Source: a bacterium (GTDB lineage Bacteria > JALSQH01). Taken from it: a stretch of 17,152 bases of DNA. Positions 15,659-17,152 of the stretch are shown piece after piece. Where the stretch lies: the NCBI GenBank assembly GCA_026985515.1, contig JALSQH010000061.1, positions 1 to 17,152 of the forward strand. Reading direction: 5' to 3'. A model generated the notes under the pieces. That model saw only the letters and a list, made by a program, of their open reading frames with translations, ran no database searches and was not told where the DNA came from. Numbering within the stretch: the stretch's first letter is position 1; each line of letters begins with the position of its first letter. A program made the position numbers and the translations under genes.

Positions 15659-15686
15659 TTGACAACTAAAACCTTTTAAATATAAT
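15659..15686 (+). promoter_or_regulatory. Near-consensus sigma-70 promoter of the speD-speE operon
   Basis: TTGACA (15659-15664) and TATAAT (15681-15686) are both perfect hexamers with a 16-base spacer. Transcription should begin near 15693, leaving about 125 bases before the speD start codon. A core promoter this strong suggests that control lies downstream, in the leader. Confidence 0.88.
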
Positions 15687-15692
15687 ACCTAA

Positions 15693-15818
15693 TTACAGTT
15701 TCCAGGGAAAGGAGGTGAAGAAAGGTATGCGTGACGGTGAAGCCGACAAGCGTATCTGTTTTTGCGGGCTTTTATACCTTGACAATTGGTGAAAACCCTA
15801 ACCAGGAGGTATGATGAA
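15693..15818 (+). promoter_or_regulatory. Structured speD leader with competing hairpins and a leader ORF
   Basis: Two exclusive pairings use the same strand. ATACCTT (15774-15780) can pair with AAGGTAT (15722-15728), 7 of 7. Its ATACCT can instead pair with AGGTAT (15807-15812), 6 of 6, which includes half of the speD ribosome binding site AGGAGG (15804-15809). The second hairpin is helped by TGGT (15787-15790) with ACCA (15801-15804). Inside the first, AAGCC (15740-15744) can pair with GGCTT (15767-15771). A 21-codon ORF runs through the switch region. This layout would allow translational control of speD by a metabolite or by ribosome position. It matches no riboswitch class I recognise. 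Folding is by eye only. Confidence 0.5.
15727..15792 (+). CDS. Putative 21-residue leader peptide upstream of speD
   Basis: ATG 15727 to TGA 15790-15792. The peptide begins M-R-D-G-E-A-D-K-R and ends L-L-Y-L-D-N-W, with an I-C-F-C segment between. The region ahead carries AAAGGAGGTGA (15708-15718), an almost complete complement of the usual 16S rRNA 3' end, followed by GAAAGGT; the spacing from GGAGG to ATG is 11 bases, slightly long. The stop lies 26 bases before the speD GTG. The start codon sits inside the first leader stem and the Y-L codons lie in the shared switch strand, so translation would change the fold. The ORF could be chance; conservation is untested. Confidence 0.4.
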   Translation: MRDGEADKRICFCGLLYLDNW

Positions 15819-16238
15819 GTGAAAAAGGCACTTGGAACCCAGTTGATCGTGGAGCTCTATGGATGTGATCCAAAAACCCTCACCAGCCGCGATTATGTTG
15901 AAAAGGCCCTCCAGGAAGCGGCATTAAAATCTCATGCACATTCAATTGGTTCATTCTTCCATCAATTCCAGCCACATGGTGTTTCTGGAGTAATCATCAT
16001 TGAGGAATCCCACTACACAATCCACACATGGCCGGAGAATGGTTACGCTGCAGTGGATCTATTCTACTGCAGTGATGAGGTGGATGTGGAGAAGGCTCTG
16101 GAGGTACTTGAGAAATATTTCAAACCGGAGAAGATGACTCTCTTTGAGTTGAAGAGGGGCGTACTCAGGGAAAAGGAATCGGAATTGCCTGTGGAATCTG
16201 AAAAGGTTACAACAGACTCCAGGGCTGTAATAGCGTAA
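15819..16238 (+). CDS. speD: S-adenosylmethionine decarboxylase proenzyme
   Basis: A 139-residue pyruvoyl enzyme that decarboxylates S-adenosylmethionine to provide the aminopropyl donor for spermidine-type polyamines. The proenzyme self-cleaves between E63 and S64 in E-E-S-H-Y-T-I-H-T-W-P-E, and Ser64 becomes the pyruvoyl group. H69 and C84 match the processing and catalytic residues of the short bacterial/archaeal class (Ser63, His68 and Cys83 in the Thermotoga enzyme). GTG 15819 is the start: AGGAGG (15804-15809) lies 9 bases upstream and the product begins M-K-K-A-L-G as in relatives. A TTG at 15786 would reach into the leader. Two out-of-frame ATGs (15811, 15814) lie between the ribosome binding site and the GTG. 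The last 20 or so residues form an extra polar tail. speE follows after 22 bases. Confidence 0.95.
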   Translation: MKKALGTQLIVELYGCDPKTLTSRDYVEKALQEAALKSHAHSIGSFFHQFQPHGVSGVIIIEESHYTIHTWPENGYAAVDLFYCSDEVDVEKALEVLEKYFKPEKMTLFELKRGVLREKESELPVESEKVTTDSRAVIA

Positions 16239-16260: not shown

Positions 16261-17152
16261 ATGGAAAAAAAGTGTCCACCGGTGTGGTATGTAGAAACGA
16301 TGGGGGATAGTTTAAGCTATTTTTACAGGGTTGAGAATTTTGTTTATCAGGGGAAATCTGAGTTTCAGAAGATAGATATAGTTGATACATGTGAATTTGG
16401 AAGGGTGCTCTTCCTTGATGAAAAGATTCAATCTGCTGAGATTGATGAGTTTATCTACCATGAGATGCTTGTTCATCCTGCAATGCTTTTACATCCATCA
16501 CCTGAAAGAGTTCTCATAATAGGTGGTGGTGAAGGTGCAACATTGAGAGAGGTCCTGCTTCATCCAGATGTAAAAGAAGTCGTGATGGTTGATATTGATG
16601 AGGAACTGGTTTCTGTTTGCAAAAAGTATCTGGAGAAGTGGCACAGAGGAGCCTTTGATGATCCAAGGAGCAGGGTAATTTTTGAAGATGCCAGAAAATA
16701 TGTCTTTGAGACTGACAGGAAGTTTGATGTGGTGATTTCTGACCTCACTGAGCCCCTTGAGGAGGGTCCCTCTGTTTATCTTTTCACGAAGGAATTCTAC
16801 TCCCGAATTTTTGATATTCTGACAGATGATGGCATACTTGTAGCTCAATCAGGCAGTGCAGATATCTTTTACTACAATTTGCCCACAACCCTTTACAGAA
16901 CACTTAAAGAAGTTTTCCCCTTTGTGGATATCTATCTTACCTTCATGATGTCTTTCCAGTCGCTCTGGTCCTTTGTCATTGCATCTAAATCAAAGCAACC
17001 TTCAGATGTAACTGAGGAGGAACTGGAAAAAGAGATTAAGAGAAGAAATTTATCCCTTAAATTTTTCTATCCCGGATTTATCAGAAGCATTTTTACTCTC
17101 CCTCTCTATCTTCAGGAAGAATTGAAAAAGCCGGGTAAAATAAGTACCGATT
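16261..17152 (+). CDS. speE: Aminopropyltransferase (spermidine/thermospermine synthase-like), 3' end cut
   Basis: 297 residues are visible and the frame is open at the window edge. The enzyme transfers aminopropyl from decarboxylated SAM, made by SpeD, to a diamine or polyamine. Y-H-E (66-68), I-G-G-G-E-G-A-T (87-94), D111 in V-D-I-D and E142-D-A-R line the donor site. The catalytic segment is D161-L-T-E-P followed by L-F-T-K-E-F-Y. The D-L-T form and the V-A-Q-S-G-S-A segment resemble thermospermine synthases (ACL5 type) and thermophile aminopropyltransferases more than the D-S-(T/S)-D-P of standard SpeE. Glu164 stands where the substrate-binding Asp is usual. The tail beyond 250 looks like the start of a C-terminal extension. 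AGAGG (16250-16254) is the ribosome binding site. The acceptor amine is not certain. Confidence 0.9.
   Translation, partial: MEKKCPPVWYVETMGDSLSYFYRVENFVYQGKSEFQKIDIVDTCEFGRVLFLDEKIQSAEIDEFIYHEMLVHPAMLLHPSPERVLIIGGGEGATLREVLLHPDVKEVVMVDIDEELVSVCKKYLEKWHRGAFDDPRSRVIFEDARKYVFETDRKFDVVISDLTEPLEEGPSVYLFTKEFYSRIFDILTDDGILVAQSGSADIFYYNLPTTLYRTLKEVFPFVDIYLTFMMSFQSLWSFVIASKSKQPSDVTEEELEKEIKRRNLSLKFFYPGFIRSIFTLPLYLQEELKKPGKISTD

Follow-up and report, generated by a model that had tools for sequence, protein, structure and literature searches.

Few metabolite-sensing arrest peptides are known in bacteria, to our knowledge; one leader peptide of the polyamine pathway, SpeFL of the gamma-proteobacteria, precedes the ornithine decarboxylase gene speF. 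SpeFL and TnaC are both bacterial peptides that arrest the ribosome at termination: SpeFL senses ornithine and blocks RF1-mediated release, and the tryptophan-sensing TnaC of E. coli, 24 residues long, is arrested at a UGA stop codon with involvement of RF2 (PMC8429421). In mammals, the MAGDIS peptide of AMD1 stalls at its stop codon under high spermidine and blocks synthesis of the AMD1 enzyme (PMC13025110). Other systems include ErmCL/ermC, where a leader ORF is combined with a hairpin that conceals the downstream Shine-Dalgarno (SD) sequence (PMC10219788), and the spermidine riboswitch, a variant of SAM-I that serves as an off switch for spermidine on speD/speE-type genes (PMC10853860).

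Here we report the analysis of a short ORF upstream of the S-adenosylmethionine decarboxylase gene speD in a bacterial DNA contig of 17,152 nucleotides (hereafter, the window), as well as of its counterparts in related genomes. Because it is a short SD-led ORF fixed before one operon, and its conservation ends at the stop codon, it resembles TnaC, SpeFL, and MAGDIS. As in MAGDIS and the plant AdoMetDC uORFs, the ORF precedes a S-adenosylmethionine decarboxylase gene and its key residues end at the stop; however, AMD1 has a eukaryotic scanning mRNA with another peptide and another ribosome, the enzyme in the window is of the bacterial class (TIGR03330), and its leader ends with LYLDNW rather than DIS, being a functional analogue at most. 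Like SpeFL, it is a leader peptide of the polyamine pathway, with the termination arrest demonstrated for SpeFL and proposed for the speD leader, but its target is speD, not speF, and its UGA or UAA stops, never UAG, differ from the RF1 block by SpeFL. The UGA stop, the readability by RF2, and the similar short length are shared with TnaC, and arrest is again the proposed part, whereas the sequence and the regulated operon are different, and the gap to speD is too short for the Rho arrangement of TnaC. The window has a leader ORF and a predicted hairpin over the downstream SD like ErmCL/ermC, although the hairpin is missing from most members of the speD leader family and no drug is involved. 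The spermidine riboswitch also controls speD/speE-type genes, but it is a structured RNA, and no match to the SAM family or any other Rfam family was found in the window and the relatives tested. Regulatory leader peptides are a known kind of element; as far as could be checked, the speD leader family and its target are new. The peptide has no match among the Pfam and NCBIfam profiles, and the largely open-access literature searched did not yield any description of a leader peptide for speD in bacteria.

The speD-speE operon and its leader ORF

All features of the locus described here are on the forward strand. A sigma-70-type promoter, TTGACA-16-TATAAT (positions 15659-15686), matches the consensus at 12/12 positions, in agreement with the strong near-consensus promoter described in an earlier note on this DNA. 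It is followed by the leader SD AGGAGGTGA (15710-15718, read from the sequence) and by a leader ORF of 21 residues, MRDGEADKRICFCGLLYLDNW, closed by a stop codon (15727-15792), one of the conserved SD-led ORFs that precede speD both in the window's family and in the candidate division WOR-3. The speD SD, AGGAGG (15804-15809), lies 11 bases past the leader stop. The speD gene (15819-16238) starts with GTG and matches TIGR03330 with 136.5 bits and PF02675 with 135.3 bits, and the polyamine aminopropyltransferase gene speE (16261-17151; NF002010, 300.9 bits; PF01564) continues past the end of the window. No intrinsic terminator was found.

At every leader locus tested, speE is located downstream of speD, and the order leader-speD-speE is constant. 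The promoter, in the form TTGAC[ACT]-16/17-TATA[AC]T, precedes 18 of the 19 distinct leaders. In the alignment of these leaders, the AGG of the leader SD with the next T, the leader ATG, and the speD SD AGGAGG are all invariant, and the speD start codon is GTG or TTG, never ATG, at 19/19 loci, including the GTG at 15819 in the window. The leader stop is separated from the aligned speD start by 19-35 bases and from the speD SD by 11-21 bases. We ruled out a leader-SpeD fusion by readthrough or frameshift, since the offset between the leader stop and speD takes all three values modulo 3. In the window, a three-codon ORF (ATG ATG AAG TGA; 15811-15822) is found between the speD SD and the GTG, with its stop overlapping the start codon, and several relatives also carry ATGAAGTGA or ATGAATTGA.

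Distribution and conservation of the leader peptide

The window's family is represented by two genomes, that of the window and one other (G001), and SpeD searches led on to WOR-3, where 78 of 147 genomes have a SpeD match. In the SpeD clade that contains the window's family and WOR-3 sequences, the leader was identified in 18/18 distinct sequences, without any of the clade's WOR-3 or own-family members having to be left out; the sole leader-less row in this part of the tree comes from another phylum and sits on a long branch. The nineteenth leader precedes a WOR-3 speD outside this clade, at a greater distance (L062), and the known range of the peptide is therefore a single SpeD clade plus one outlier. 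Since the window's two-genome family nests within the WOR-3 SpeDs with good support (98/96), the operon and its leader may have moved jointly between phyla, as suggested by a tree of a short protein in which some inner forks are weak.

A six-frame search with the pattern L[YF]xDNW-stop in the 147 WOR-3 genomes yielded 22 matches, 19 of them directly upstream of speD, versus 6 matches for the reversed-pattern control. Domain-wide, 386 genomes gave 17 matches, only three of which are upstream of speD, as against 154 genomes encoding a TIGR03330-type SpeD; these three represent the window's family and one further genome, whose leader matches that of the WOR-3 locus L051. At speD loci from other phyla, an SD-led ORF of at least 7 codons ending near speD was present in only 2 of 30 cases.

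All 19 distinct leaders, which represent 21 genomes, have the LYxDNW-stop end in the form L-[Y/F]-x-D-N-W-stop, are 17-21 residues long, and possess their own strong SD, as exemplified by MCDYARCSLYLGRLYLDNW, MSEGDRCKHCVGLLYVDNW, MESESERIVGILYVDNW, and MRSDEDQPGRRYTTFLFVDNW. The N-terminal half is variable in both length and sequence, and conservation is located at the end adjoining the stop. In the window, this end corresponds to the C-terminal block G-L-L-Y-L-D-N-W-stop (15766-15792), the proposed arrest motif. The codon table of the 19 leaders has invariant L, D, N, W, and stop, Y or F in 14 and 5 leaders, respectively, and G in 18 of 19, where the sequences were chosen partly by D-N-W, and the preceding L, Y/F, and G played no part in the choice. 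The codons at the invariant positions vary, with TTA, CTT, TTG, CTA, and CTG used for Leu, GAT and GAC for Asp, and AAC and AAT for Asn. Pairwise comparison of the last codons gave 341 synonymous versus 70 non-synonymous differences, the latter all being Tyr/Phe replacements, with the counts representing non-independent events because the sequences are related. The leader stop is UGA in 16 cases, UAA in three, and never UAG, and hence all leaders can be read by RF2. On this comparative evidence, conservation resides in the amino acids encoded by the leader ORF, chiefly the last six, and in the stop. The ORF is thus conserved as a peptide, and we consider its translation very probable.

Two features of known bacterial arrest peptides were found in this family: a short ORF preceded by a ribosome-binding site of its own lies directly upstream of speD in 19/19 leaders, and selection on the peptide is concentrated near the proposed arrest point. 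The ORF could instead encode a small trans-acting protein that binds, for instance, SpeD or a polyamine, in line with acidic N-terminal residues (DGD, EGD, ESES) that recur among the leaders; we regard such a protein as improbable, given that conservation is mostly confined to the last six residues by the stop, the remainder varies in length and sequence, and the ORF is nearly always directly upstream of speD. We assign a similarly low probability to a leader that merely supplies ribosomes to speD by translational coupling, with no sensing. The strong leader SD, the short gap, and the use of GTG or TTG instead of ATG as the speD start at all leader loci would agree with coupling, which, however, needs no conserved C-terminal peptide, and speD has an invariant AGGAGG of its own.

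Predicted RNA structures in the leader region

The earlier note had proposed that the strand 15774-15780 pairs either with 15722-15728 or with the speD SD, and that a small molecule chooses between the two folds. Both pairings are indeed present in the window: 15774-15780 (ATACCTT) is the exact complement of 15722-15728 (AAGGTAT), 15774-15779 is complementary to 15807-15812 (AGGTAT), the speD SD falls inside the second pairing, and the helper pairing of 15787-15790 (TGGT) with 15801-15804 (ACCA) can also be drawn. The switching strand, TATACCTT, is part of the Leu-Tyr-Leu codons of the leader ORF. Within 15693-15822 there are three perfect 6-mer complements and one 7-mer, compared with 1.3 and 0.28 expected from shuffles; since 18% (6-mer) and 20% (7-mer) of the shuffles equal these counts, the complementarity is no more than expected by chance. 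The fold of 15693-15850 has a z-score of -1.4.

The comparison with relatives speaks against the switch as well. Across the 19 aligned leaders, 62% and 65% of the cells are paired in the first and second stems, respectively, neither stem is kept in relatives, and no pair-changing covariation was detected in either of them beyond that in slid and shuffled controls. The helper stem is nearly unique to the window, with its two G-C pairs found there only and one of them kept as G-U in a single other sequence, the nearest relative. RNAalifold produced zero consensus pairs for the 19 leaders, and a search with Rfam 15, including the SAM classes, gave no match at the gathering score in the window or in 15 related loci and, at a relaxed threshold, nothing of significance. 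We also rejected selection for RNA structure within the leader ORF, with a mean z-score of -0.55 against synonymous recoding over the 19 leaders and a strong signal in only a few. What stands from the earlier proposal is a regulatory leader of speD with a leader ORF and likely control at the level of translation; two mutually exclusive stems acting as a switch we now regard as very improbable.

A single hairpin over the speD SD was considered separately. Minimum free energy folds of the window predict a 12-pair hairpin (15774-15812) formed by 15774-15780 with 15806-15812 and 15786-15790 with 15801-15805, and folding of the free RNA buries the speD SD to an unpaired probability of about 0.13-0.20. 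Compared with versions in which the ORF was recoded synonymously, the natural sequence leaves the SD less accessible, both in the window (0.13 versus 0.54 ± 0.20) and in the one other member of its family (L002; 0.22 versus 0.51 ± 0.29). SD masking is predicted in these two and is no shared feature of the other leaders; the hairpin is not conserved in WOR-3, where most leaders carrying the same peptide have the speD SD in an A-rich linker and predicted to be largely open. The predicted hairpin, which overlaps the leader end and masks the SD in the window's family, may thus be a lineage-specific addition. When a ribosome footprint is placed on the leader stop of the window, the computed unpaired probability of the SD rises from 0.20 to 0.72, so that a ribosome parked there would melt the hairpin, which argues for activation of speD in the window. 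Accordingly, an attenuation of the ErmC type is conceivable in the window's family, where the hairpin would keep speD off until the leader ribosome stalls or slows at the end of the ORF, opens it, and turns speD on; in view of the open SDs in WOR-3 and the absent covariation, we find it unlikely.

Proposed arrest at the leader stop

All 19 distinct leaders retain the last residues, and the peptide therefore probably controls speD by arresting the ribosome translating it. The reading that we prefer, and hold with somewhat more confidence than doubt, is that 15727-15792 encodes an arrest peptide acting as a nascent chain, with stalling at the leader stop and, most simply, repression of speD when polyamines are plentiful. 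In this mechanism, the motif (G)-L/I-L-[Y/F]-x-D-N-W-stop would act from within the ribosome when Trp occupies the P site and UGA or UAA the A site, and termination would stall on a metabolite of the pathway. The likeliest signal would be a polyamine end product, and SAM and decarboxylated SAM are less likely candidates. A ribosome held 11-21 bases ahead of the speD SD would most simply block initiation, leading to feedback repression of the speD-speE operon. With the stop at 19-35 bases from the speD start, a held ribosome would be in contact, or almost in contact, with an initiating one, which favors feedback repression. The distance from the stalled P site to the speD start is 28-41 bases, that is, from a clear clash to barely enough room, and a steric block is thus uncertain for some members.

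The components of this mechanism differ in strength. Action in cis by termination arrest appears probable from the position of the conserved residues, a net repression of speD is about evenly balanced with other outcomes, and a polyamine as the ligand falls a little short of that. Termination arrest could also turn the operon on through Rho-dependent attenuation, with stalling at the stop hiding a Rho site, as stop-codon arrest peptides of the tna/speF type are known in bacteria (PMC8429421). This is highly doubtful here, because the 11-21 bases between the leader stop and the speD SD leave little room for a Rho site, and the linker is A-rich.

We tentatively suggest that the speD leader may be a bacterial polyamine sensor that switches the gene off through arrest at the leader stop, a convergent, sequence-unrelated counterpart of the animal and plant AdoMetDC uORFs. 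If polyamines do trigger the arrest, bacteria and eukaryotes would have arrived independently at this type of control for the same enzyme. As the conserved core is short, comprising six residues and the stop, both the ligand and the mechanism are directly testable in a standard cell-free system.

Other elements upstream of speD in WOR-3

In four WOR-3 genomes that are close relatives (loci L075, L077, L080, and L199), a different SD-led ORF, MCxxLxRxxLNPLTSD[YF]GGxKECKP, precedes speD and overlaps its start, and it may represent another class of leader peptides for this gene. Another WOR-3 branch has a conserved non-coding block about 150 bases upstream of speD (L060, L069, and L071), in which GGTCTCTGGGYGGC is followed by a variable hairpin, TTATGGYAAACCYTTCAAMCA, and CACTTGGGGTGC, the last located over the SD. 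This block is a candidate structured RNA for speD; it has no match in Rfam, and a pattern search for further members was too unspecific.

Finally, SD-led ORFs with acidic N termini overlap the speD start out of frame at L060, L061, L064, L065, L069, and L070, as well as at L071, L072, L101, L102, and L103. These ORFs mostly begin with MDxxD (MNENQ in L070) and have a constant frame relative to speD, such that a +1 shift would join the two; dual starts, coupling, and frameshifting are the candidate readings of this overlap.
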